Origin: Chloroflexi bacterium OLB13
GTDB taxonomy: Bacteria; Chloroflexota; Anaerolineae; Aggregatilineales; Phototrophicaceae
DNA length: 64,000 nucleotides
Direction of reading: 5' to 3'
Assembly (NCBI GenBank): GCA_001567485.1
Contig: JZRA01000068.1
Coordinates: 248,001 to 312,000, forward strand
Shown one piece after another: positions 21,937 through 35,608 of the stretch. Each line of letters starts with the position of its first letter. Positions within the stretch are counted from its first letter, which is position 1. Both the position numbers and the translations under genes were made by a program. The notes beneath the pieces were generated by a model. It worked only from the letters and a program-made list of their open reading frames with translations. It searched no databases and was not told where the DNA came from.

Positions 21937-22862
21937 TCACGCCGGTTGGTCTGTGGTCTGTGTGAGAGACGGCCGTGGTGCGCGACGCAGCCGGCGAACT
22001 TGCACGAGCAGAATGCCGGCCGCTGCGAGCAGCATGCCGGCAACTTCGCGTATCGACAGCGCGTCACCGAGGAAAATCCACGCCAGCGCCCCAATCTGGA
22101 TCAGCATGGTACTGTTGATCATGCTGGACTCCATGGCGGAAAGGGTTCGCTGCGTATGATTCCACAACGTGAACGCAAATGCCGTGTTGATTCCTGCCAG
22201 CCATACGATGAACCCGATCTCTCCCACCCCGAGCTGTGGCACGCCCTGCGTGAACAGCGCCGCAACGATCAACATCGCCGCGCCGACCCCCATGCTGATC
22301 GTGGTGATGAGCAGAGGAGACAGCGTCGCTGTCCGGTTGACGAAACGGCCCAACACGGCGGCGGCGGCATTGGCGAACACTTGAAACGTGGCTACTGCGA
22401 GACCGATCATCTGTGTGCCGGAGAAGTCCGCCTCTGCGAAGTACAGGGCGATACCGGCGAAAAACACAGTGATACCGGCGATTTGTAGGCGGGTCGGGTG
22501 TTCGGCGAGCCACACCGTGCCGAACACCAACACGACGGCAGACGTACCGTTCAGCATCATGCTGTGGGTGGCAGGCGGAAGATAATCGAGCGCGACGAAC
22601 TGCGCGCCTGTGTGAGCGTGTACATCACCAAACCGAGCGCGATGAGACGCCGCCAATCGGCACGGGTGAGGCGGGCGGTCATCCCTCGGCGGGACGTGCG
22701 CAGCGCCAGCGGAAGGAGAAACACAAATGCAAGGCTATAGCGCAGCCCTGCGAACGTTAGCGGCGGAAGCGTTTCAAGCCCGGTTTTAATCAGGATGACG
22801 GAGGTTGACCATAGGAACGTGACGAACAGCGCCTGCAATATACTGCGGACATGCGAAGGCAT
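21937..22862 (-). CDS. EamA/DMT-family transporter, frameshifted
   Basis: About 308 residues when repaired. There are ten predicted membrane helices in two EamA repeats, starting MPSHVRSILQALFVTFLWSTSVILIKTGL. The frame breaks near 22605: coding-strand CAGGCGCGCAGTTC should read CAG GGC GCG CAG TTC, restoring ..TLTQGAQFVALDYLPPATHSMM. One G has been lost in a G+C-rich run. Both halves keep typical DMT residues. EamA proteins export metabolites or drugs. The gene's 5' leader carries a ykkC-family riboswitch, which makes this a candidate exporter for the riboswitch ligand. AAAGGA precedes ATG 22862. Confidence 0.75.
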
Positions 22863-22907
22863 AGCCAATCCTTTCGGACGGTGACGGATAGAGACGCAAA
22901 AACGTCT

Positions 22908-23029
22908 CCAACCGCACTCCTCCGGGTTTCTTGCCTTTGAGATGCAGACCACGAAACGTGGTATTCCGCAGCGCTTGAACCAGTCCCGGCGTGTTTGCCG
23001 GCGGAACCCTAGCTGCCTCTATAGGTTGG
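22908..23029 (-). promoter_or_regulatory. ykkC-family riboswitch (guanidine-I-like; subtype unresolved)
   Basis: On the minus strand, P1 is CCAACC (23029-23024) with GGTTGG (22913-22908). Inside it stand the invariant CTAGGGTTCCG (23012-23002), a P2 hairpin CCGGC/GCCGG, ACTGGTTCAAG in the place of the family's CUGGUCCGAGAG, a P3 hairpin with ACCACG/CGTGGT, and AAGGCAAGAAACCCGGAGGAG-like 3' core (22944-22924), close to the GGAUAAAAGCCCGGGAGA element. Order and spacing match ykkC RNAs, which bind guanidine (subtype 1) or ppGpp/PRPP (subtype 2). It is 45 bases upstream of the transporter ATG. The expression platform is unclear; GAGACG-TTTTTG-CGTCTC follows the aptamer. Confidence 0.7.
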
Positions 23030-23158: not shown

Positions 23159-23187
23159 TTGACAAGCGACAAAAATATGGTTAGCCT
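23159..23187 (+). promoter_or_regulatory. Sigma70-type promoter of the ilv-leu operon
   Basis: A perfect -35 TTGACA (23159-23164), a 17-base spacer and TAGCCT (23182-23187). The start would be near 23194, giving a ~32-base leader before the branched-chain leader peptide. The arg promoter in this window has the same layout (TTGACA / TATCCT). Confidence 0.7.
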
Positions 23188-23225
23188 TGTCGCAACTTGT
23201 GAACAAATCCACAGGGATCCATATC

Positions 23226-23300
23226 ATGCGCGAAGCCGCGCGTTCCGTAGTCATTAGCATTGCCCTCGTACTCGTCCTTATTATTGGGAACGGGCTTTAA
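23226..23300 (+). CDS. Branched-chain amino-acid attenuator leader peptide
   Basis: A 24-codon ORF beginning MREAARSVVISIALVLVLII and ending GNGL then TAA. Twelve of 24 residues are Val, Ile or Leu, eleven of them packed between residues 8 and 20 (codons GTA, GTC, ATT, CTC, CTT). An AGGGA site lies before ATG 23226. It sits 39 bases after a strong promoter and 48 bases before an intrinsic terminator in front of ilvE. This is the pattern of the ilvBN/ilvGMEDA leader peptides of other bacteria: ribosomes stall on Val/Ile/Leu codons when the charged tRNAs are scarce. Confidence 0.85.
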   Translation: MREAARSVVISIALVLVLIIGNGL

Positions 23301-23301
23301 T

Positions 23302-23379
23302 GGCTTGGGACGCGGACTGACGCCGCAAGTGAGCAGAACCTGCACACGAAAGCCCCCAAGCCGGGGGCTTTCGGCGTTT
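23302..23379 (+). promoter_or_regulatory. Transcription attenuator of the ilv-leu operon
   Basis: The terminator stem is GAAAGCCCCC (23348-23357) with GGGGGCTTTC (23363-23372), a 5-base loop and a short TTT (23377-23379). GGCTTGGG (23302-23309), two bases after the leader stop codon, is perfectly complementary to CCCAAGCC (23355-23362), which covers the end of the terminator's 5' arm and the whole loop. The two pairings exclude each other. A ribosome at the leader stop would mask 23302-23309 and permit termination; one stalled on the Val/Ile/Leu codons (23247-23285) would leave it free, giving antitermination. Confidence 0.8.
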
Positions 23380-23401
23380 AATGGGATGGAAAGGACGTGA
23401 G

Positions 23402-24322
23402 ATGAACTTTGGGACTTATGCATGGCGCAACGGCGAATGGGTCGCGTTCGAGGACTGCACCGTCCACGTCACCACCCATGCGCTGCACTACGGATCGAGC
23501 GTGTTCGAGGGTATTCGCGCCTACAGCACGCCGCAGGGGCCGGCGGTATTCCGGCTTCAGCCGCACACCAAACGGATGGTCAATTCGTGCAAGCTGGCGA
23601 AGATCGACCTGCCGTACAGCGCCGACCAAATCAACAGCGCGATTCTTGAGACGATCCGCCGCAATGGGCATGACTCGTGCTACGTCCGTCCGCTTGCCTT
23701 TCGCGGGCAGGGCGCGATGGGGCTTGAGGGCCGCAAGAACAGTACCGACCTTGTGATCCTCACGATGGAGTGGGGGAGATACCTCGGATCGGACGCCATC
23801 GAGAACGGCGTTGACGTGCAGATCAGCTCGTGGCGGCGAATGGCCCCCGGCACGGCGTCGAGCTGGGGCAAGATCGGCGGGCAGTACATCAACAGCCAGT
23901 TTATCAGCATGGAAGCGCACGACAATGGGTTCCACGAAGGGCTTGCGCTCGACATCAACGGCTATGTGAGCGAGGGCGCTGGTGAGAACGTGTTCGTGGT
24001 CGTTGACGGCGTCGTCATCACGCCGGGAAGCTGGGCGTCGATCCTGCTGGGCGTCACGCGGGACAGTGCGATCACGCTGCTGAAGGAGATGGGTGTCGAG
24101 GTGCGCTTCGAGCCGATCCCGCGCGACATGCTGTACTTGGCCGACGAGGTGTTCTTCACCGGCACGGCCGCCGAGATTACGCCGGTACGGTCGATTGACC
24201 GGATTCCGGTAGGCAGCGGCACGCGCGGCCCGATTACGAAAGCCGTACAGGATCGGTTCTTCGGGATCACATCAGGCGCGGTCGAGGACAAGTACGGCTG
24301 GCTGAGTTACGTGAATAAGTAA
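23402..24322 (+). CDS. ilvE: Branched-chain amino-acid aminotransferase
   Basis: A 306-residue fold-type IV PLP enzyme that transfers the amino group from glutamate to the 2-oxo acids of Val, Leu and Ile. HVTTHALHYGSSVFEGIRAY is the N-terminal signature; the PLP lysine is in WGKIGGQYINSQF; ALDINGYVSEGAGENVFVV is the class-IV motif. ATG 23402 follows AAAGGA; longer in-frame starts overlap the terminator. It is the first structural gene after the attenuator, so the last step of the pathway heads the operon. Confidence 0.95.
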   Translation: MNFGTYAWRNGEWVAFEDCTVHVTTHALHYGSSVFEGIRAYSTPQGPAVFRLQPHTKRMVNSCKLAKIDLPYSADQINSAILETIRRNGHDSCYVRPLAFRGQGAMGLEGRKNSTDLVILTMEWGRYLGSDAIENGVDVQISSWRRMAPGTASSWGKIGGQYINSQFISMEAHDNGFHEGLALDINGYVSEGAGENVFVVVDGVVITPGSWASILLGVTRDSAITLLKEMGVEVRFEPIPRDMLYLADEVFFTGTAAEITPVRSIDRIPVGSGTRGPITKAVQDRFFGITSGAVEDKYGWLSYVNK

Positions 24323-24391: not shown

Positions 24392-26098
24392 ATGCTGCTG
24401 ACCGGCGCGGAAATCCTACTGGAGTGTCTCATCAAGGAAGGGGTCGAAGTCGTCTTCGGCTATCCGGGTGGCGCAATCCTCCCGACGTATGACTCGATGA
24501 CCAAGTACCCGCAGATTCGCCACGTCCTTGTTCGTCACGAGCAGGGCGCGAGCCACATGGCCGACGGATACGCGCGCGCGTCAGGGAAAGTCGGCGTGTG
24601 TATCGCCACCAGCGGGCCGGGCGCGACCAACCTCGTCACGGGCCTCGCTACCGCCTTGATGGACTCGGTGGGCATCGTCGCCATCACCGGTCAGGTCGCG
24701 CGCGGCTCCATCGGAACCGATGCGTTCCAAGAGACCGATGTCACGGGTGTGACTCTGCCGGTGACCAAGCACAACTACCTCGTGATGTCCGCGGCCGAAA
24801 TCCCGCTTGTCGTTGAGGAGGCGTTCCACATCGCCCGATCTGGCCGGCCCGGCCCGGTGCTGATCGACATTCCGAAGGATGTGCAAACGGAGAAGGCCGA
24901 ATTTGGCAGCTATCCGACCGGAAAGCTGCGGCTGCCGGGGTATAAAGTCGCCAGCAGCGCCGACGAGAACGACCTTGCCGAAGCGATCCGGCTGATCCAA
25001 GAGGCGGAGCGCCCGCTGATCCTCGCCGGTCACGGCCTCATCATGGGCAACGCCACGCAGCAGCTTCAAGAATTGGCGGAGATCGCGGGCATCCCCGTGA
25101 CGCTCACACTGCTCGGCAAGGGCGCGCTGCCCGAACAGCACCCGCTGTGCATCGGCATGATGGGCATGCACGGCCACGCCGCCAGCAACCACGCGATTCA
25201 AGAGGCCGATCTGCTCATCGCGCTCGGTATGCGGTTCGATGACCGCGTGACCGGCAACCTCAAGACGTATTCGCCGCTCTCGCGCAAGATCCACGTCGAC
25301 ATCGACCCCTCGGAGATCAACAAGAACGTGAAGGTCGACGTGGGCATCGTGGGCGATCTGCGCACCGTGCTGACTCAGATGCTCCCGCATGTGCCGCGTA
25401 AACAGCATCCGGAGTGGGTGCGCCGTATCCGTGATTGGCAGGAAGACGGCAGCGAGCGCGATATCGTCACGCATTACACCGGCTCTACACTGCTCGGCGC
25501 GCAGGTCATCAACGACCTATGGAAGTTCACTGATGGCAACGCGGTGACTGTGACGGATGTCGGACAGCATCAGATGTTGGAGGCGCAGTACTATCCGCAC
25601 CAGCGCCCGTCCACGCTGTTGACCAGCGGCGGGTTGGGGACGATGGGCTTCGGCTTTCCGGCCGCCATCGGCGCGAAGTTCGCCAAGCCTGACGAGGAAG
25701 TGTGGGCGATTGTCGGGGACGGTGGGTTCCAGATGACGCTGGCGGAGCTGGCGACCGCGCGGCAGGAGAACGTCGACGTGAATATCGCCATCCTGAACAA
25801 TGGATTCCTCGGCATGGTGCGCCAGTGGCAGGAAATCTTCTACGAACAGCGCTACCACGCCACCCCGATGGTCAATCCCGACTTCTGCAAACTGGCGGAA
25901 GCCTACGGGATCCCGTCAATGCGCGTGACCAGCCGCGATCAGATCAAAGAATCGGTCGACTTCGCGCGCAGTATCAAAGGCCCGGTGCTGATCGAGTACG
26001 TCATCCTCAAAGAGGAGATGGTGTATCCGATGGTGCCTTCTGGGGCCGATCTGGACAAGATGATCCGACGTCCGAAGTGGGGAGAGACACAGCCATGA
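24392..26098 (+). CDS. ilvB: Acetolactate synthase, large (catalytic) subunit
   Basis: A 568-residue ThDP- and FAD-dependent enzyme that condenses two pyruvates to acetolactate (or pyruvate with 2-oxobutyrate). VVFGYPGGAILPTYD opens the Pyr domain; the catalytic glutamate is in VRHEQGASHMADGYARASG; the ThDP motif runs GDGGFQMTLAELATARQEN.. to LNNGFLGMVRQWQE. ATG 24392 is preceded by GGGAG; an upstream in-frame ATG at 24356 lacks a ribosome-binding site and adds no conserved sequence. The stop overlaps ilvN by ATGA, consistent with subunit coupling. Confidence 0.95.
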   Translation: MLLTGAEILLECLIKEGVEVVFGYPGGAILPTYDSMTKYPQIRHVLVRHEQGASHMADGYARASGKVGVCIATSGPGATNLVTGLATALMDSVGIVAITGQVARGSIGTDAFQETDVTGVTLPVTKHNYLVMSAAEIPLVVEEAFHIARSGRPGPVLIDIPKDVQTEKAEFGSYPTGKLRLPGYKVASSADENDLAEAIRLIQEAERPLILAGHGLIMGNATQQLQELAEIAGIPVTLTLLGKGALPEQHPLCIGMMGMHGHAASNHAIQEADLLIALGMRFDDRVTGNLKTYSPLSRKIHVDIDPSEINKNVKVDVGIVGDLRTVLTQMLPHVPRKQHPEWVRRIRDWQEDGSERDIVTHYTGSTLLGAQVINDLWKFTDGNAVTVTDVGQHQMLEAQYYPHQRPSTLLTSGGLGTMGFGFPAAIGAKFAKPDEEVWAIVGDGGFQMTLAELATARQENVDVNIAILNNGFLGMVRQWQEIFYEQRYHATPMVNPDFCKLAEAYGIPSMRVTSRDQIKESVDFARSIKGPVLIEYVILKEEMVYPMVPSGADLDKMIRRPKWGETQP

Positions 26099-26664
26099 GC
26101 ACGAACGCAAACAAGAAGCACATCATCTCCGCGCTGGTCGAGAACAAGCCCGGCGTGCTCAACCGGCTCGTGAGTCTGTTCCGGCGGCGCAACTTCAATA
26201 TCGACAGCCTGACGGTCGGGCGCACCCACAAGCCGCACGTCAGCCGCATGACCATCGTGATCGACGGCCAGCGGCTCAACCCGCGCCAGATGGTCGCCAA
26301 TCTGTACAAGCTGGTGAACGTCATCGACGCCCGCATGATTAGCGAAGACCTGCATGTCGAACGCGATATGGCGCTGGTGAAGGTGCGCACGGACGACACC
26401 GAGAGCTTCAACGCCGTGACCGAGCTGTGCGAACGGTTCCCCGCCCGCATCATCGACATGGGGATGCAGGTCGCCATCGTGGAGATCACGGCGCGCACCG
26501 AGTTGGTCGAGGAATTTATCAACCAGCTCAAGCCGATCGGTATCGTCGAGCTGGTGCGTACCGGCGTCGTCGCGATGGGGCGCGGCGTGCGCACGCAGGA
26601 TACCGAGTACGAGCCGGCGTCGATTTCGATGAACGGCGGCGAACTTGAGCGTTACAGCGTCTAA
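26095..26664 (+). CDS. ilvN: Acetolactate synthase, small (regulatory) subunit
   Basis: A 189-residue protein with the N-terminal ACT domain ([34 protein letters not shown]), which binds valine for feedback inhibition, and the longer C-terminal domain ([36 protein letters not shown]) that activates the catalytic subunit. It has the length and layout of IlvH/IlvN. It is translationally coupled to ilvB. Confidence 0.95.
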
Positions 26665-26717
26665 TTACTGGGAGATCCGGGGAATTGGCCCCGACGTACG
26701 GAGGGAATGTCGCACTC

Positions 26718-27725
26718 ATGGCAACGATGTATTACGAAAACCACGCCGACCTGAACCTGCTGGCTGGCAAGACGATTGCAGTGATCGGGTACGGCAGTCA
26801 AGGGCACGCGCACGCTCTGAACTGCAAGGACAGCGGGCTGAACGTGGTCGTCGGCCTGCCTGCCAGCAGCAAGAGCCGCGCTAAGGCCGAGGCCGACGGT
26901 CTGACCGTCCTCACGCCGGCCGAGGCGACCAAGGCTGCCGATGTCATTATGATCGTCACGCCGGATACGGTGCAGGCTGATGTGTATAACGCAGAGATCG
27001 GCCCCAACTTGAAGGCCGGCGCGATGCTGATGTTCGCGCACGGGTTCAATATCCACTTCGGGACGATCGTGCCGCCGGCCAACGTCGACGTGACGATGGT
27101 CGCGCCCAAGTCACCCGGCCACCGCGTACGTGAGGTCTATCTCGACGGCGGCGGCGTGCCGGGTCTGGTCGCGGTGCATCAGGACGCGACCGGGCAGGCC
27201 AAGGCAAAGGCGCTGGCCTATGCGAAGGCGATTGGCTGCACACGCGCCGGCGTGATCGAGACCACGTTCAAAGAGGAAACCGAGACCGACCTCTTTGGTG
27301 AGCAGGTCGTCCTGTGCGGCGGCGTCACGGCGCTGATCCGCGCGAGCTTCGAGACGTTGGTCAAGGCCGGGTATCAGCCGGAGATCGCCTACTTCGAGTG
27401 CATGCACGAACTCAAACTGATTGTTGACCTGCTGTATCAAGGCGGCCTGAGCTATATGTGGTACAGCGTGAGCGACACGGCGGAGTACGGCGGCTACCTC
27501 GTCGGCGACTCGTTCGAGAGTATGGTCAAAGAGGAGATGGCCGGTGTGCTGTCCCGCATCCAGAGCGGCGAGTTCGCCCGTACATGGATCAAAGAGAACA
27601 AGGATGGCCGCCCGAATTTCGGCCCGCGCCGCCAGACCGAACACGATCTGCTGCTCGAAAAGGTCGGCGCCGAGCTGCGCGACATGATGCCGTTCCTGAA
27701 CGCCAAGCGGATCAAGCAGGGCTAA
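26718..27725 (+). CDS. ilvC: Ketol-acid reductoisomerase (NADP+)
   Basis: A 335-residue class I KARI, which isomerises and reduces acetolactate to 2,3-dihydroxy-isovalerate. The Rossmann motif is [33 protein letters not shown] is the loop that sets NADPH preference (serines and basic residue). The knotted C-terminal domain carries [14 protein letters not shown] and [16 protein letters not shown] with the magnesium-binding acidic residues. ATG 26718 gives the standard N-terminus; it is 53 bases from the ilvN stop. Confidence 0.95.
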
Positions 27726-27861
27726 CGGCGATGTCTGATGGGAGTGGCGTATCGCGTCCTGACGCGATCGGAGGAAAGGAGGTGAGTGGGGCAGAGGATG
27801 GCCTTAGCGACCTTAGCCCACAGCTTACCGCCCTTTCTAATCCGAGCAGAGGAGATTCGTG

Positions 27862-29466
27862 ATGCCCAAGCACCCTGAGAACCATGTATTGATCTTCGAT
27901 ACGACGCTGCGCGACGGCGAGCAAAGCCCCGGCGCTACGTTGACGAGCGCCGAGAAACTGGAGATCGCCCGTCAGCTCGCCAAGCTGGGCGTCGACATCA
28001 TCGAGGCGGGCTTCCCTGCCGCGTCACCGGATGACTTGGCGGCCGTTCAGCGTATCGCCCGCGAAGTCGGGACGCCGGACGGCCCCGTTATCACCGGCTT
28101 GGCGCGCGCGGTCGAGAGCGACATCCGCACCTGTTGGGAAGGCGTGAAGGACGCGGCCAAGCCGCGTATTCATACCTTCCTCGGCGTGTCCGACTATCAC
28201 ATGAACTACATCACGAAAACCACGAAGGCCGAAGCGCTGGAGATCGTGCGCAAGGCCGTGACGCTGGCGAAGAGCCTGTGTGACGATGTCGAGTTCAGCC
28301 CGATGGACGCGGGCCGCGCTGACCCGGCGTTTCTTGTCGAGGTGTGCGCGCTGGCGGTTCAGTGCGGCGCGACGACGCTCAACATCCCCGACACGGTCGG
28401 CTATGTCGCGCCGCAGGAGTGGTATGAGCTGATCCACGGCCTGATCCATGAGACACCGGGCGCTGGCCCCGGCTCAGGCATTATCTGGTCGGTACACTGC
28501 CACAACGACCTCGGCATGGCGACGGCGAACACGCTCGCGGGCGTGCAGGCGGGCGCGCGACAGGTCGAGGTGACGGTCAACGGCATCGGCGAGCGCGCGG
28601 GCAACACGAGCCTTGAAGAGGTGGTCATGGCGCTGCATACGCGGCCGCAGTATTACCACCTGTCGACCAGCATCAACACGCGCGAGATCGTCAAGACAAG
28701 CCGGATGGTGAGCAATTACACCGGGATGCCGGTGCAGCCGAATAAGGCGATTGTCGGCGCGAACGCATTCGCCCATGAGTCCGGCATCCATCAGGATGGG
28801 ATGCTCAAGAACGCGCAGACGTTCGAGATCATGACGCCGGAGACGGTCGGGCTGCACGAGTCGCGCTTGGTGCTCGGCAAGCACAGCGGGCGGCATGCGC
28901 TCAAGATCCGCTTGCAGGAACTGGGCTACACCTTCGAAGGCGACGAACTGAACCGTGTGTTCGCGCGATTCAAGGCGCTGGCCGACGCCAAGAAACACGT
29001 CACCGACGCCGATCTCGAAGCGCTGGTCGTCGACGAGACGCACAAGCCGCAGGAGATCTATGCACTGGTGGACTGCCAGATCACGTGCGGGACGATGGGC
29101 ATGCCAACGGCGACCCTCAAGATTCGCGGCGAGAACGGCGAGGAGAAGGTGTACGCGGCGGTCGGCACCGGGCCGGTGGATGCGGCGTACCGCGCCGTCG
29201 ACGCGATTGTGCGGGCGCCGAACACGCTGATTGAATACTCGGTACACGCCGTGACGGAAGGGATCGACGCGCTGGGCGAGGTGACGGTGCGCATTTCGCC
29301 GGCGGGCGACACGCGCACGTTCGGCGGCTACGGCGCTGAGCCGGATATCGTCGTCGCCAGCATCAAGGCGTATATGGCGGCGTTGAACCGTATGCTGGTT
29401 TCGCTCGGTCACGGTGACCTCAAGCCGGAAGGTGAGGCGGCCGCGGTGGGTATCCGGGGCGAGTAA
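27862..29466 (+). CDS. leuA: 2-isopropylmalate synthase
   Basis: A 534-residue enzyme that condenses acetyl-CoA with 2-oxoisovalerate, the committed step of leucine synthesis. [16 protein letters not shown] is the catalytic TIM-barrel start; [18 protein letters not shown] supplies the metal-binding histidines; [19 protein letters not shown] closes the barrel. The C-terminal regulatory domain (from about residue 390, [14 protein letters not shown]..) binds leucine for feedback inhibition. AGAGGAG precedes ATG 27862. A 136-base gap separates it from ilvC. Confidence 0.95.
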
Positions 29467-29468
29467 CG

Positions 29469-29726
29469 ATGGCAGCGACGCGATGGTTGTACGCTACAGT
29501 TGACTTCATCCGGGAGAAGGCGCAGGTCACGGTGCTGATGCCGAACGGAGATCACCGCGTGACTGCCGTCGAGTCTGAGGACGAAGCCTTCACCGTCATC
29601 GCACAGATGGGCAGTGAGGGCTGGGAGCTAACCGGCGCCGAACAGCAGGTGAGAACACGCGTGCTGATCGAGGCGACGTATACCGACTTTCGCCGGCTGT
29701 GGTTCAAGAAGCCGATAGACGGATAG
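29469..29726 (+). CDS. Small conserved-looking protein in the leu operon (DUF4177-like)
   Basis: An 85-residue protein located two bases after leuA and 15 before leuC, so it is certainly co-transcribed. The second half, MGSEGWELTGAEQQ..RRLWFKKPIDG, resembles DUF4177-type proteins (GWEL..V..FKRP), small beta-alpha-beta proteins of unknown function. There is no signal peptide or metal motif. The assignment is tentative; no role in leucine synthesis can be inferred beyond its position. Confidence 0.6.
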   Translation: MAATRWLYATVDFIREKAQVTVLMPNGDHRVTAVESEDEAFTVIAQMGSEGWELTGAEQQVRTRVLIEATYTDFRRLWFKKPIDG

Positions 29727-29741
29727 AGGAACAGAGGACGC

Positions 29742-31167
29742 ATGGCAGGAAAGACGCTGTTTGAGAAGGTATGGGACGCGCATCTGGTGCGGCCGCAGTC
29801 GGCCGATACGCCGGCCGTCCTGTACATCGACTTGCATCTGGTGCATGAGGTTACGTCGCCGCAGGCCTTCACGCTGCTGCGCGAGCGCGGCCTGAAGGTT
29901 CGCCGGCCCGACAAGACGCTGGCGACCATGGATCACAGCACGCCGACGACGCCGCGCGGGCCGGACGGCATCATTCCGGTGACGGATTCGCAGGCGGCGT
30001 ATCAACTGAATTACCTGACGCGCAACTGCGAGGAGTTCGGCATCCCGCTGTTCGCGCTCGGCACCGAGAATCAAGGTATCGTGCATGTGATCGGGCCGGA
30101 GCAGGGGCTAACTCAGCCCGGCATGACGATCGTATGCGGCGACAGCCACACCAGCACGCACGGCGCGTTTGGGGCGCTGGCCTTCGGTATCGGCACCAGC
30201 GAGGTCGGGCATGTGCTGGCGACTCAGACACTGCTTCAGAACAAGCCCAAGACGATGGCGATCAAGGTGGACGGTACGCTGTCGCCCGGCGTGACGGCGA
30301 AGGACATCATCCTCGCCATCATCGCCAAGATCGGCGTGGGCGGCGGCACCGGGCATGTCGTCGAATACATGGGCAGCGCCATCCGCGGCCTGTCGATGGA
30401 AGGACGCATGACGATCTGCAATATGTCCATTGAGGGCGGCGCGCGCGCTGGCATGGTGGCGCCTGACGAGACGACGTTCAACTACATCGAGGGGCGTCCG
30501 CGTGCGCCGAAGGGCGCGGACTGGGAGGCCGCGGTCGCGCACTGGCGGACACTACCCACCGACGACGACGCGGTGTTCGACGCGACGGTCGAGCTTGACG
30601 GGGACGCGCTCACGCCGATGATTACATACGGCACGAACCCCGGCATGGGGATGCGGATCACCGATCGCGTACCCGATCCGGATCAGCTCAGCGACGTTAG
30701 CGCGAAGGTGGCGCTCGACAAGGCGCTGCGATACATGGATCTTCAGCCGGGGCAGAGCCTGCTCGGCAAGCCGGTCAACGTCGTGTTCATCGGAAGCTGC
30801 ACGAACTCGCGCATCACCGACCTGCGTGAGGCGGCCAAATATCTGCAAGGCCGCAAAGTGTCGGAGAACATCCGGGTGATGGTTGTGCCCGGATCGCAGC
30901 AGGTGAAGAAGCAGGCCGAGGCCGAAGGGCTGGACGAGGTGTTCAAGGCGGCGGGCGCGGGAGTGGCGCGAGGCGGGCTGCTCGATGTGCATCGCCATGA
31001 ACGGCGATCAACTTGCTCCGGGCGAGTACGCGGTCAGCACGAGCAACCGGAACTTTGAGGGCCGGCAGGGCAAAGGTGGACGGACGTTCCTCGCCAGCCC
31101 GCTGACGGCCGCGGCCACGGCGATCACCGGCGTCGTCACCGATCCGCGGACGCTGTTGACGAACTAG
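29742..31167 (+). CDS. leuC: 3-isopropylmalate dehydratase, large subunit, frameshifted
   Basis: About 474 residues when repaired. With LeuD it isomerises 2- to 3-isopropylmalate, and citramalate to erythro-3-methylmalate, through a [4Fe-4S] cluster. [35 protein letters not shown] and [15 protein letters not shown] are aconitase-family signatures. The frame breaks at the GGG run 30959-30961: GGC GCG GGG AGT should be GGC GCG GAG TGG, i.e. one G too many. The other frame restores [18 protein letters not shown], with the last two cluster cysteines, and a proper C-terminus. An inserted base in the assembly is the simplest reading. Confidence 0.85.
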
Positions 31168-31175
31168 AGGACACG

Positions 31176-31811
31176 ATGCCTACCGACCGGCTCCACGCGA
31201 GGCTTCCAGATGGGCGACCCGTCGCGAGCACGTGGATACGTGGCGGCGGGACGCATGTCGCGCTGCTGCTGCCGGGCAGAGGCTACACCGCGCGGGGGCC
31301 GGTGCTGCATTATCCCGGCCTGTGGTTTGTCCAACACGGCTACGACGTGATCTCGGTGGACTACGTGTTCAGTGAGATGAGTTATCCGGACATGGTTGCC
31401 CATGCTGCTGCGTGCGCCGCTGCGGTATGGGCGACCGCCACGCGAAGCCACCGCTGCGACCATGTCGTGCTGGTCGGCAAGTCGCTTGGAACGCAGGCGA
31501 TGGCGCGCCTGATCGACCAGACGCCGGAACTGCGCTTGGCGCGCTGTGTGTGGCTCACTCCGATCTTCGCCGATAACGCGGTGATGGAGTCGATCGAGAA
31601 GCACAAGCCGCGCTCGCTGTTCGTCGGCGGCACGTCGGATGCGACGTTCGACAGTGAGCGGATGGAGCGCGCCCTCTCGGCGACGGGTGGCAGCAAGCTC
31701 GTGCTCGACGGCGCGAATCACAGCTTGGAACGGCCGGGTGATGTGCGGGCGTCGGTGGCGGCGATCTCGACACTGCTGGACGCGTTAGAACGTTTTATGA
31801 CGAAGGAATAA
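31176..31811 (+). CDS. Small alpha/beta hydrolase in the leu operon
   Basis: A 211-residue single-domain protein. ALLLPGRGYTARGPVLHYPG contains the oxyanion region, the nucleophile serine is in VLVGKSLGTQAMARL (GKSLG, near residue 110), and GANHSLE gives the catalytic histidine near residue 185. The acid residue is probably in GGTSDATFD. There is no signal peptide. It lies between leuC and leuD, subunits of one enzyme that are usually adjacent, with gaps of 8 and 9 bases. I cannot assign a substrate; an ester or thioester of a pathway intermediate is possible but unsupported. Confidence 0.75.
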   Translation: MPTDRLHARLPDGRPVASTWIRGGGTHVALLLPGRGYTARGPVLHYPGLWFVQHGYDVISVDYVFSEMSYPDMVAHAAACAAAVWATATRSHRCDHVVLVGKSLGTQAMARLIDQTPELRLARCVWLTPIFADNAVMESIEKHKPRSLFVGGTSDATFDSERMERALSATGGSKLVLDGANHSLERPGDVRASVAAISTLLDALERFMTKE

Positions 31812-31820
31812 GCGAGGACG

Positions 31821-32426
31821 ATGGAACCCTTCAAGCCATTCTCAGGCAGCATGGTGGCGCTGCCGATCAACGACATCGACACCGACCAAATCATCCCGGC
31901 GCGTTACCTCAAGGTGACCGATAAGGCCGGGTTGGGGCAGGCGGCGTTTAGCGATTGGCGCTACGACGCGGACGGCACGCCCAAGCCGGACTTTCCGCTG
32001 AATCAGCCGCAGTATCAAGGCGCGCAGGTGCTGGTCGCCGGCCATAACTTCGGCTGTGGGTCGAGCCGCGAACACGCCCCGTGGGCGCTGCTCGGCGCAG
32101 GCATCAAAGCAGTCGTCAGCACCGATTTCGCCGACATCTTCAAGAACAACTCGCTTAAGAACGGGCTGATTCCGATCATCGTTGACGAGGAGACGCAGCA
32201 GCAGTTGATCTCGTTGGCGCAGGAAGACCCGATGGCGAAGGTTCGCGTCGATCTAGAAGCACAGACGATCACGCTTCCCGATGGGCGCGCCGTGCCGTTC
32301 CCGATTGACGGATTCTCGCGTTACTGCCTGTTGAATGGAGTCGACCAGCTCGGGTTCCTACTGAGTCTGGAAGGCGAAGCCGCCGGCTATGAAGCCGCGC
32401 ATCCCGCGCCGATCACCACAATCTAG
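31821..32426 (+). CDS. leuD: 3-isopropylmalate dehydratase, small subunit
   Basis: A 201-residue swivel-domain subunit. [19 protein letters not shown] is the N-terminal signature; [26 protein letters not shown] is the substrate-recognition loop of Leu[11 protein letters not shown] and [30 protein letters not shown] complete it. The length is normal for the proteobacterial-type LeuD. It is split from leuC only by the small hydrolase and is followed 7 bases later by cimA. Confidence 0.95.
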
Positions 32427-32433
32427 GTTTCGC

Positions 32434-34019
32434 ATGACCCGCATCGCCATTTATGACACAACCCTTCGGGACGGCACCCAGCGCGAGGGCATTTCGCTCT
32501 CCGTTGCGGACAAGCTCAAGATCACCCGCATGCTGGATGATCTCGCGTGGCCTATATCGAAGGCGGTTGGCCGGGGAGCAATCCGAAGGACGCCGCGTAT
32601 TTCGAGCAGGTGCGCGGCGTACAGCTTCGCCATGCGAAGATCGCCGCCTTTGGGGCGACGTGTCGCAAGGGCGCGCGACCGGAGGAGGACGAAAACCTCA
32701 AGGCCTTGGTCGATGCACAGACGCCGGTCTGTACGGTGGTCGGAAAGACGTCGATGCTTCATGTGGTCGATGTGCTGCAAACTACCGCCGAAGAAAACCT
32801 GCGTATGATCCGCGAGAGCGTCGCGTATTTGAAGTCGCTCGGCAAGGAGGTTGTCTACGACGCCGAACACTTCTTCGATGGCGCCAAGCTGGATTTCGAG
32901 TACGCCTTTGAGACGCTGCGCGCGGCCTCTGACGGTGGGGCGGACGTGGTCGTGCTGTGCGACACCAACGGCGGCTCGCTGCCGTGGGAAGTGGCAGACT
33001 TCGTCGTGAAGGCGCGTGATGCGTTCCCAACCGTCCATTTCGGCATCCACACGCACAACGACGGCGAATTGGCCGTCGCCAACACGCTCGCAGCGGTGCA
33101 AGCGGGCGCAATCCATGTGCAAGGCACGATCAATGGCTACGGCGAACGCTGCGGCAACGCCAACTTGTGCAGCATCATCCCCGACTTGATGCTCAAGATG
33201 GGATACGACTGCGTACCAGACACGAACCTGCGTACGCTGGCGCGCCTAAGCTGGACGGTCGCCGAAGTGTGCAATCTCGCGCCGGATCAGCACTTGGCGT
33301 ATGTCGGCCGGTCGGCGTTCGCGCACAAGGGTGGCATTCACGTCGCGGCGATCCGGCGCAACGTCGACAGCTACCAGCATATCGACCCCAGCCTTGTCGG
33401 CAACGAGATGCGCGTGCTGATCAGCGACCTGAGTGGGCGCGGCAACGTGATGAGCAAGGCGGAGGAGTTCGGCCTCGACATCTCCAGCGCGGCGGCTGCG
33501 AAGGTACTCGACGAGATCAAATCGCTGGAGCATACCGGCTATGTGTTTGAAGGCGCTGAGGCGTCTGTGGCGATTCGGGTGCTGCGCGCCTCTCCGGAAT
33601 ACACGCCGGTGTTCTCGCTGGTGGACTTCACCTGCATTGTGGAGAACCGGCGCGGGCGCGGCGATCTGGCCGAGGCGATGGTCAAGATCGAGATGGACGG
33701 CGACATCGTGCACACCGCGGCGGAAGGCAACGGCCCGGTCAACGCGCTCGATCTCGCGCTGCGCAAGGCGCTCATCCCGCGTTACCCACAGGTGCGCGAC
33801 TTCCAGCTTGCCGACTACAAGGTGCGAATCCTCGACGGGGCAAACGGCACCGGCGCGATGACTCGCGTCTTGATCGACACGCAGAACCACAACCGGCGTT
33901 GGAGCACGGTCGGCGCGGGGACGAACATCATCATCGCGAGCTGGCTGGCGCTGGTCGACAGCATCGAATACGGTGTATTGCTCACCAACGGCGCACGCCA
34001 AGCGCGTCAACCGCAGTAA
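32434..34019 (+). CDS. cimA: (R)-citramalate synthase, frameshifted
   Basis: About 528 residues when repaired. It condenses pyruvate and acetyl-CoA to citramalate, the first step of the threonine-independent route to isoleucine. IYDTTLRDGTQREGISLSVADKLKI and GIHTHNDGELAVANTLAAVQAGA distinguish it from LeuA, which is present separately. The frame breaks near 32545: CTCGCGTGGCC lacks one G compared with CTC GGC GTG GCC, which restores DDLGVAYIEGGWPGSNPKD. The rest, with the C-terminal regulatory LeuA-dimer domain, is intact. Its place between leuD and leuB fits, since LeuCD and LeuB process citramalate onward. Confidence 0.85.
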
Positions 34020-34065: not shown

Positions 34066-35133
34066 ATGAAGGCGAATATCGTACTACTGCCGGGAGACGG
34101 CATCGGGCCGGAAGTGATGAAGTCGGCCGTGGCTGTGTTGGATGCTATCGCGGCGAAGTTCGGCCACAACTTCGACTATGACGAGCAGCTGATCGGCGCG
34201 ATCGCCATCGAGACGACCGGATCGCCGCTGCCGGACGCGACGCTCCGCGCGGGCGAACAAGCCGATGCCATCCTGCTCGCCGCGGTTGGCTTGCCCAAAT
34301 ACGCCGACCCGACCGCGCCGGTACGCCCGGAGCAAGGGCTGCTCAAGATTCGGGCGCATTTCGGCCTCTTTGCCAATCTGCGCCCGGTCAAGACCTATCC
34401 CGCGCTGTACGGCTATGCGCCGCTGCGCGCCGAACTGCTCGAAGGTGTCGATATGCTGATCGTGCGCGAACTGACTGGCGGCCTGTATTTCGGCGCGCGC
34501 AAGGAGCAGGACGGGGACGACAACAGCTTCGACACGATGAACTACACCGTGGGCGAGGTCGAACGCGTCGCGCATGTCGCCTTCCGTGCCGCGCAGCAGC
34601 GGCGGGGCAAACTGACTTCGATCGACAAGGCCAACGTGCTGGCGTCGATGCGGCTGTGGCGGCGCACGGTGATGAAGGTGGCCGAGGATTATGGAGACAT
34701 TGCGCTCAACCACGAGTACGTGGATGCGGCGGCGATGTATTTGATGACCCGGCCTGCATCGTATGATGTGATCCTCGCCGAGAATATGTTCGGCGACATC
34801 CTGAGCGACGAGGCGTCGGTGCTGGCTGGATCGCTGGGGATGCTGCCATCCGCGTCGCTTGGCACGGGGACGTTTGGCCTGTACGAGCCGGTGCATGGCA
34901 GCGCGCCAGACATCGCGGGGCAGGGCAAAGCCAACCCGATCGGCCAATTGTTGAGCGCGGCGATGCTGCTGCGCTACAGTCTGGGGCTAGAGACCGAGGC
35001 CGCGGCCATCGAAGCGGCGGTCGAGGACGCGCTGGCGGACGGCGCGCGCACGGCGGACATCGCGCCGAAAGGCAGTGCCTTTGTCAGCACCGACGAGTTC
35101 ACGCAGACGGTTGTCGGGGCGCTCAAGGAGTAA
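34066..35133 (+). CDS. leuB: 3-isopropylmalate dehydrogenase
   Basis: A 355-residue NAD-dependent beta-decarboxylating dehydrogenase acting on 3-isopropylmalate and probably 3-methylmalate. IVLLPGDGIGPEVMKSAV is the N-terminal signature; the substrate loop is LRPVKTYPAL; RELTGGLYFGARKE has the catalytic tyrosine; DIDKANVLASMRLWRR-like SIDKANVLASM holds the catalytic lysine; NMFGDILSDEASVLAGSLGMLPSASLG binds Mg and NAD. ATG 34066 follows AAGGGAG; a longer in-frame extension overlaps cimA. Confidence 0.95.
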   Translation: MKANIVLLPGDGIGPEVMKSAVAVLDAIAAKFGHNFDYDEQLIGAIAIETTGSPLPDATLRAGEQADAILLAAVGLPKYADPTAPVRPEQGLLKIRAHFGLFANLRPVKTYPALYGYAPLRAELLEGVDMLIVRELTGGLYFGARKEQDGDDNSFDTMNYTVGEVERVAHVAFRAAQQRRGKLTSIDKANVLASMRLWRRTVMKVAEDYGDIALNHEYVDAAAMYLMTRPASYDVILAENMFGDILSDEASVLAGSLGMLPSASLGTGTFGLYEPVHGSAPDIAGQGKANPIGQLLSAAMLLRYSLGLETEAAAIEAAVEDALADGARTADIAPKGSAFVSTDEFTQTVVGALKE

Positions 35134-35179: not shown

Positions 35180-35608
35180 ATGGTCAAGCCGCTTGCCGAA
35201 CGATTGTTGATTAAAGCTGGCCAGCATGTATGTGTTCTCAATGCGCCGGTTGGGCTTCTTGCGTCGCTTGACGGATTGCCGGATACCGCCGCTGTCTCCA
35301 TCGAGGCGGCGGAGTCCGCGGACGTATGGCTGGTCTTCGTCAACGATGCGGCGGCGGTCGCGGAACATGGCCCGGTGATTGCTAGCCGTGCCAAGCCCGG
35401 CGCTGTGGTGTGGTTCGCCTACCCGAAGAAATCCGGCGCCATCAAGACCGACATCAGCCGGGACAGCGGCTGGGGGCCGGTGGAATCGTTGGGCTGGGCG
35501 CCGGTCACGCAGATCTCGGTGAACGAAACGTGGTCGGCGCTGCGCTTCAAGCCCGTGGGCGACATCAAGACGATAACGCGCAAATTCGGCCCGCACGCCG
35601 CCGGCTAG
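35180..35608 (+). CDS. DUF3052-like protein
   Basis: A 142-residue protein. The pattern LLIKAGQHVCVLNAPVGLLASL ... DVWLVFVNDAAAV ... PGAVVWFAYPKKSGAIKTDISRDSGW ... SVNETWSALRFKPV matches DUF3052/YdeI-like small proteins with an alpha/beta fold. Their function is unknown; they are often single genes in soil bacteria. It follows leuB by 46 bases with a GGGAG site and is the last gene of the ilv-leu transcript; it overlaps the stop of the convergent solute-binding protein gene by four bases. Confidence 0.7.
   Translation: MVKPLAERLLIKAGQHVCVLNAPVGLLASLDGLPDTAAVSIEAAESADVWLVFVNDAAAVAEHGPVIASRAKPGAVVWFAYPKKSGAIKTDISRDSGWGPVESLGWAPVTQISVNETWSALRFKPVGDIKTITRKFGPHAAG

Follow-up and report, generated by a model that had tools for sequence, protein, structure and literature searches.

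The window, by which we mean the whole stretch of 64,000 nucleotides analysed here, comes from a genome of the phylum Chloroflexota. The initial annotation described in it a twelve-gene ilv-leu operon, and twelve co-directional genes with short gaps can indeed be counted, in the order ilvE-ilvB-ilvN-ilvC-leuA-orf85-leuC-orf211-leuD-cimA-leuB-orf142:

23402..24322, + strand: ilvE, branched-chain aminotransferase, first gene (NF005146/TIGR01122 above cut-off)
24392..26098, + strand: ilvB, acetolactate synthase large subunit (TIGR00118 above cut-off)
26110..26664, start approximate, + strand: ilvN, acetolactate synthase small subunit (TIGR00119 above cut-off)
26715..27725, start approximate, + strand: ilvC, ketol-acid reductoisomerase (TIGR00465 above cut-off)
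27859..29466, + strand: leuA, 2-isopropylmalate synthase (TIGR00973 above cut-off)
29469..29726, + strand: 85-aa ORF, no family match
29742..31167, + strand: leuC, broken into two frames close to its 3' end in this assembly
31176..31811, + strand: 211-aa ORF, no family match, possibly an alpha/beta-hydrolase by eye only
31821..32426, + strand: leuD, isopropylmalate dehydratase small subunit (TIGR00171 above cut-off)
32434..34019, + strand: cimA-like citramalate synthase, broken into two frames close to its 5' end in this assembly
34066..35133, + strand: leuB, 3-isopropylmalate dehydrogenase (TIGR00169 above cut-off)
35180..35608, + strand: 142-aa ORF, no family match, last gene of the presumed operon

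The Aconitase domain of leuC stops at profile position 410 of 463, and its C-terminal part is found in the frame of the ORF 30985-31167. The frame shift reflects an indel in the assembly or else a genuine lesion. In the cimA-like gene, the HMGL-like domain begins at profile position 39, and the first part lies in the frame of the ORF 32389-32808. On the minus strand, at positions 21937-22952 of the window, what looks like an EamA-type transporter likewise occupies two overlapping ORFs that differ in frame, which suggests that this part of the assembly contains indel errors. Scans for promoters and terminators internal to the operon gave no excess over shuffled sequence. It is likely that the twelve genes share a common control.

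The leader region upstream of ilvE

The region that precedes ilvE contains a short ORF and a set of complementary segments, some of which overlap:

23159..23187, + strand: predicted promoter (-35 TTGACA 23159-23164, 17-nt spacer, -10 TAGCCT 23182-23187)
23226..23300, + strand: leader-peptide ORF MREAARSVVISIALVLVLIIGNGL*, 24 codons, from ATG 23226 to TAA 23300
23239..23246, + strand: segment 1, CGCGTTCC, which pairs with GGGACGCG at 23307-23314 to form the protector helix
23262..23295, + strand: hairpin P1 in the regulatory codon run, a possible RNA polymerase pause hairpin
23302..23309, + strand: segment 2, GGCTTGGG, 5' half of the antiterminator, covarying with segment 3
23347..23373, + strand: terminator hairpin (segments 3:4), CGAAAGCCCCC-AAGCC-GGGGGCTTTCG, 11 bp
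23355..23362, + strand: segment 3, CCCAAGCC, antiterminator 3' half, which overlaps the arm and loop of the terminator

Of 59 non-redundant relatives, 53 have a best promoter-like site that opens with the exact hexamer TTGACA; among the 25 sites listed, most combine a 17-nt spacer with a -10 hexamer TAnnnT. The mean promoter score is 9.15, versus 7.88 in shuffles (sd 0.09). The fold of the leader is more stable than that of dinucleotide shuffles (z = -2.8).

A re-reading of positions 23226-23300 recovers the counts given for the ORF in the initial annotation: Val, Ile and Leu account for 12 of the 24 codons, 11 of them within 13 positions (residues 8-20). In the 64 kb window, whichever of the six frames is read, such a stretch of 11 out of 13 is unique to the leader ORF, a short ORF with a run of end-product codons 5' of the operon. 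One base separates its stop (23298-23300) from segment 2, and the 8-mer GGCTTGGG that had been singled out near the stop is the exact reverse complement of CCCAAGCC, that is, of the end of the 5' arm of the terminator and its loop.

The intrinsic terminator sits between the leader ORF and the first gene, with a weak U-tract in the window: its tail, GCGTTTAATG / GCGTTTAA, is among the poorest of all tails seen in relatives. Because of this poor U-tract, a consensus terminator scan of the window did not report the hairpin 23347-23373, and it is by comparison alone that it is recognised as a terminator. With such a tail, termination in the species of the window may be inefficient, and basal read-through may be high.

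Folding simulations reproduce the alternative structures. Without masking, segment 1 pairs with segment 2, the 1:2 protector helix being found in the minimum-energy fold of the leader, and the terminator forms. Masking the 5' part, as a stalled ribosome would, with the RNA extended up to 23362, yields exactly the antiterminator; masking segment 2, or everything to just past the stop, yields the terminator. These correspond to the three states of a classical attenuator. The predicted energies are -12.9 kcal/mol for the antiterminator versus -21.2 for the terminator; the antiterminator, the weaker of the two, must win kinetically.

The hairpin P1 lies within the regulatory codons themselves. Against synonymous controls, re-coded with codons sampled from the pool that the leaders use, the last 14 codons of the leaders fold at a mean of -8.3 versus -6.4 kcal/mol, a value reached by 0 of 100 sets, and class-wide relatives have hairpins of type GAGCTCCT..AGGAGCT at the same place, with covariation. 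Some of the codon conservation is explained by this hairpin, as is the GGL* with which the peptides of the family constantly end. From P1 to the CTT-G step in segment 2 there are about 11-12 nt, a spacing that we take to be like that of hairpin-stabilised pauses. Pausing of RNA polymerase at P1 would probably serve to keep ribosome and polymerase in step.

Conservation and covariation in relatives

The DNA 5' of ilvE was taken from 61 genomes of relatives and from 76 named loci, which belong to metagenome assemblies of Anaerolineae; matches on the minus strand were oriented, and duplicates dropped. In 83 distinct leaders, all of the same GTDB family, an ORF rich in Ile, Leu and Val, a post-stop segment and a terminator precede ilvE: the hydrophobic codon run noted in the window is thus kept, and an arrangement that recurs in 83 distinct relatives is not due to chance. 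A hairpin with a mostly T-rich tail is present in 83 of 83, at 30-50 nt past the stop in nearly all. The segment CGGCTTGGG(T/C)GG comes directly after the stop in most of the 83 leaders; in three of them (L009, L012 and L075) it is found inside the last codons of the ORF instead. In all 62 loci where this could be tested, ilvB follows ilvE.

In 59 leaders, the hydrophobic residues comprise 782 Ile, Leu or Val versus 15 Phe and 1 Trp, and the peptides of the family end in much the same way (..VLVLII.GGL*). Codon choice is biased. Leu is encoded by CTT or CTC in 80% of cases, versus 25% in the relatives' ilvE, and by CTG in 8% versus 48%; ATT makes up 66% of Ile codons versus 37%, and Val codons avoid GTG. 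Structure, choice of isoacceptor, and avoidance of start-like NTG codons could all contribute.

The evidence for the antiterminator is compensatory. In an alignment of 50 leaders, its 7-bp core is paired in 97.7% of cells, and this proportion drops to 58-67% when the pairing is slid by one column. Double changes occur at 4 of the 7 pairs, in 8 cells versus 0.6 expected, and none of 500 shuffles reaches any of five covariation measures; the class-wide alignment agrees. Examples are GTTTGGG with CCCAAAC (L023, L033, L058) and TCTTGGG with CCCAAGA (L022, L032). In the congeneric species L034 and L035 the pair is TGCTGGGG with CCTCAGCA, which means that it was rebuilt within the genus. The complementary 8-mer of the initial annotation is therefore conserved, and changes together with its partner, in a helix that is mutually exclusive with the terminator. 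A check for covariation had also been proposed for the terminator helix; there it is weak in a fixed alignment, because the length of the loop varies, and the terminators of relatives were scored by per-sequence hairpin detection in place of fixed-column covariation.

Another comparison exchanges partners between species. Own partners form better duplexes than swapped ones for both the 2:3 and the 1:2 pairings, with z about 5 each and 0 of 300 permutations reaching the observed value; for 1:2, the figures are z = 5.1 and 0 of 300. When sequence is shuffled within each leader as a control, the 1:2 score is 16.4, versus 19.1 observed. A protector pairing that involves the ORF is thus present, with weaker support than for 2:3.

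Many relatives, among them part of the window's order, have a further ORF of 60-75 aa between the attenuator and ilvE, with the motif SPWTE(A)YQ ... PTHDALS.(I/V)YN; two genomes of another family have it before ilvB instead. The loci are L008, L011, L004, L007, L018, L042, L048, L055, L059, L075, L037-L041, L245 and L246. This second ORF has no Pfam match and is under purifying selection, with pN 0.08 and pS 0.43 for the pair L008/L011, and 0.15 and 0.64 for L038/L039. In most such loci its last codons, GACGCGCTTTCC, double as the 5' arm of a second terminator, and the stop is followed by the 3' arm and a T-run; some relatives keep the second hairpin without the ORF motif. The second ORF is absent from the window, and a search of the window's genome gave no copy. 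A ribosome that finishes it would block the second terminator, and could therefore couple expression of the operon to translation of this small protein, a hypothesis that we offer as such.

Leader composition and gene specificity

Two covariance models were used: R1, built from the leaders of the family, and R2, a class-wide model. R1 finds one copy in the genome of the window, and among 298 genomes of the class Anaerolineae, 63 contain a match. With R2, at E <= 1e-4, a match is present in 66 of the 400 genomes searched in the phylum, some of them from families that do not belong to the class. At the inspected loci, ORFs rich in Ile, Leu and Val precede ilvD (35), ilvB (31), leuS (3) and leuA. 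Since the models include the codon run, this content is partly by construction in distant matches; the downstream genes are independent of it.

The leaders of different genes do not have the same composition. Those of leuA and leuS contain 39 Leu versus 8 Ile or Val, and those of ilvB and ilvD, 420 versus 576 (Fisher p = 3e-8); the Leu-rich attenuators before leucyl-tRNA synthetase genes are at L151, L181 and L223. Outside the class, the leader MKNNFAPKYYYYYYFGRIKVRLGESL (L225:550-700) has six consecutive Tyr codons on the same scaffold, before a DAHP synthase gene. This tracking of gene function by leader composition is the strongest independent argument for charged tRNA as the signal. What comparison of sequences shows is the ORF and the codons it contains, the alternative pairings, their placement, and the gene specificity.

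Matches of R1 or R2 that lack a fitting leader or gene (L222, L217, L218; L177/L178) were left out as due to chance or undecided, among them matches beside an acyl-CoA ligase or before threonine synthase. At L217 (around 606-723), a terminator with the same CCTCCC/GGGAGG core precedes an apparent threonine synthase, and the short ORF has no clear run of Thr or Ile. At L213, around 1501-1638 on the minus strand, a leader ORF rich in Tyr, Phe and Trp (MVIIIIMWVLYYFYYGKAPVFGW..) precedes an apparent substrate-binding protein of an ABC transporter.

Proposed mechanism and comparison with known systems

An arrangement that recurs across the phylum with compensatory mutations is very probably a classical attenuation switch: we are confident, on the comparative evidence, that the leader would act as a ribosome-mediated transcription attenuator sensing charged tRNA-Leu, tRNA-Val and tRNA-Ile. 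The start of transcription would lie some 35 nt 5' of the leader ORF. When amino acids are ample, the ribosome would cross the run of Val, Ile and Leu codons quickly, reach the stop at 23298-23300 and mask segment 2 (23302-23309); the terminator (23347-23373) would then form, and transcription end near 23377-23380. When Leu, Val or Ile is short, the ribosome would stall in the run, blocking segment 1 and freeing segment 2; the latter could pair with segment 3 (23355-23362) while the terminator still lacks its 3' arm, and the operon would be transcribed. Without translation, segment 1 would pair across segment 2, giving the terminator by default. The hairpin of regulatory codons, P1 (23262-23295), would probably pause the polymerase. 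It is from the sequences that we infer stalling, pausing, termination, and the control of the twelve genes.

Could something other than codon-dependent stalling operate the same RNA switch? A hydrophobic peptide, perhaps with a ligand, might stall the ribosome by nascent-peptide arrest, and the rather constant end of the peptide in the family would fit. Outside the family, however, the order of residues varies freely while the content in Ile, Leu and Val is kept; the constant GGL end coincides with the 3' arm of the run's hairpin; and composition tracks the amino acid of the gene, Leu for leuS and leuA, and Tyr for DAHP synthase. We regard arrest as improbable. The run is also hydrophobic enough for a membrane helix, and the ORF might encode a free-standing small membrane peptide, an sORF or toxin-like product, with the terminator belonging elsewhere, but the hydrophobic residues are almost only Ile, Leu and Val, and the ORF keeps a fixed geometry with antiterminator, terminator, promoter and downstream gene; moreover the genes upstream in the window are on the minus strand, which leaves the terminator without another obvious client. 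This second reading seems to us very improbable, and we give equally little credit to a non-translational regulation in which the ORF is accidental. Genes of the ilv and leu type are under the control of T-boxes or ppGpp riboswitches in other phyla, but no Rfam match is found here even at E up to 5, and an ORF with codon bias and a codon run is the most constant feature of the leaders.

There is also the possibility that the attenuator is real in relatives and has decayed in the species of the window, where a weak U-tract would make termination inefficient. The tail GCGTTTAA against the T-rich tails elsewhere, the consensus scan that misses the terminator, and the frameshifts of neighbouring genes in this assembly all point that way. 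However, promoter, ORF, codon run and all helices are intact, including a 1:2 helix specific to the species, and the congeneric L034 and L035 have normal tails: decay is unlikely, if less so than the three preceding readings. We retain attenuation by a translating ribosome. A broader conjecture, plausible to us without carrying conviction, is that the Chloroflexota have one old modular scaffold, re-coded for different operons with Val, Ile and Leu, with Leu alone, or with Tyr, and that part of the window's order adds to it the second, protein-coding ORF and second terminator, making two attenuators in series. The parts of the scaffold would be a hairpin of regulatory codons, a TTGGG-type segment after the stop or at the end of the ORF, and a terminator with CCCAA on its loop side.

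None of the Rfam covariance models searched (Leu_leader, Phe_leader, T-box, ppGpp riboswitch and others) reaches its gathering score in the leader region, and identity with a T-box, a riboswitch or a known Rfam leader was rejected for lack of a match; in distant relatives, Phe_leader scores remain sub-threshold, at 35 bits versus 55. The enterobacterial leader-peptide attenuators are those of the E. coli operons ilvGMEDA, ilvBN and leuABCD. The Chloroflexota leaders resemble them in the leader peptide rich in Ile, Leu and Val, or in Leu, in the mutually exclusive protector, antiterminator and terminator helices, and in the class of genes. They differ in that the Rfam leader models detect no similarity, in that segment 2 comes directly after the stop, and in that the regulatory codons form a separate hairpin.

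In Corynebacterium, the ilvB-II motif has a uORF rich in branched-chain amino acids (BCAA) before ilvB, a terminator and a complementary antiterminator, with reporter tests (PMC10272879, PMC11109978, PMC11857589). These three elements are shared by the leaders described here. However, ilvB-II is found in Actinobacteria only, and there the P1 loop is the partner of the right shoulder of the terminator stem (PMC10272879), whereas in the present leaders the post-stop segment pairs with the terminator's 5' arm and loop: judged from the published layout, the leader of the window does not have the helix layout of ilvB-II and would not be its homologue. Candidate attenuators before actinobacterial ilvB, leuS and trp genes comprise leader peptides with runs of Val, Ile and Leu, and terminators, with one leuS attenuator; parts are often missing, and codon substitutions before ilvB of S. 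coelicolor had no effect (PMC1262725). The leaders of the present phylum, a different one, share such runs and terminators, leuS included. The ilvB-OMG motif, with 41 representatives in various phyla, has a uORF rich in BCAA and Thr before ilvB (PMC10272879); the BCAA-rich uORF before ilvB is a likeness, and the difference is the lack of an Rfam match in the window, the sole comparison made. In S. aureus and Listeria, both Firmicutes, a BCAA leader peptide likewise attenuates the ilv operon, there in combination with CodY (PMC5794164, PMC5864092).

A survey of premature terminators from 2010 knew of no leader-peptide systems beyond Proteobacteria and Actinobacteria before its own cases in Firmicutes (PMC2965389), and leader-peptide attenuation has been described mainly from the first two phyla, and later from Firmicutes. 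The literature searched, which took in few subscription papers, held nothing relevant on leader peptides or attenuation in Chloroflexi or Anaerolineae. Such leader ORFs are below the size handled by ordinary gene callers, and have no Rfam entry. The proposed mechanism is of the classical ribosome-mediated kind, and known as such; what is new is a phylum-wide family without a record in Rfam or in the literature found. Its well over a hundred examples provide regulatory annotation for many uncultured genomes, and natural data for theories on the choice of regulatory codons, since CTG gives way to CTT and CTC, and the codons are shaped by RNA structure.
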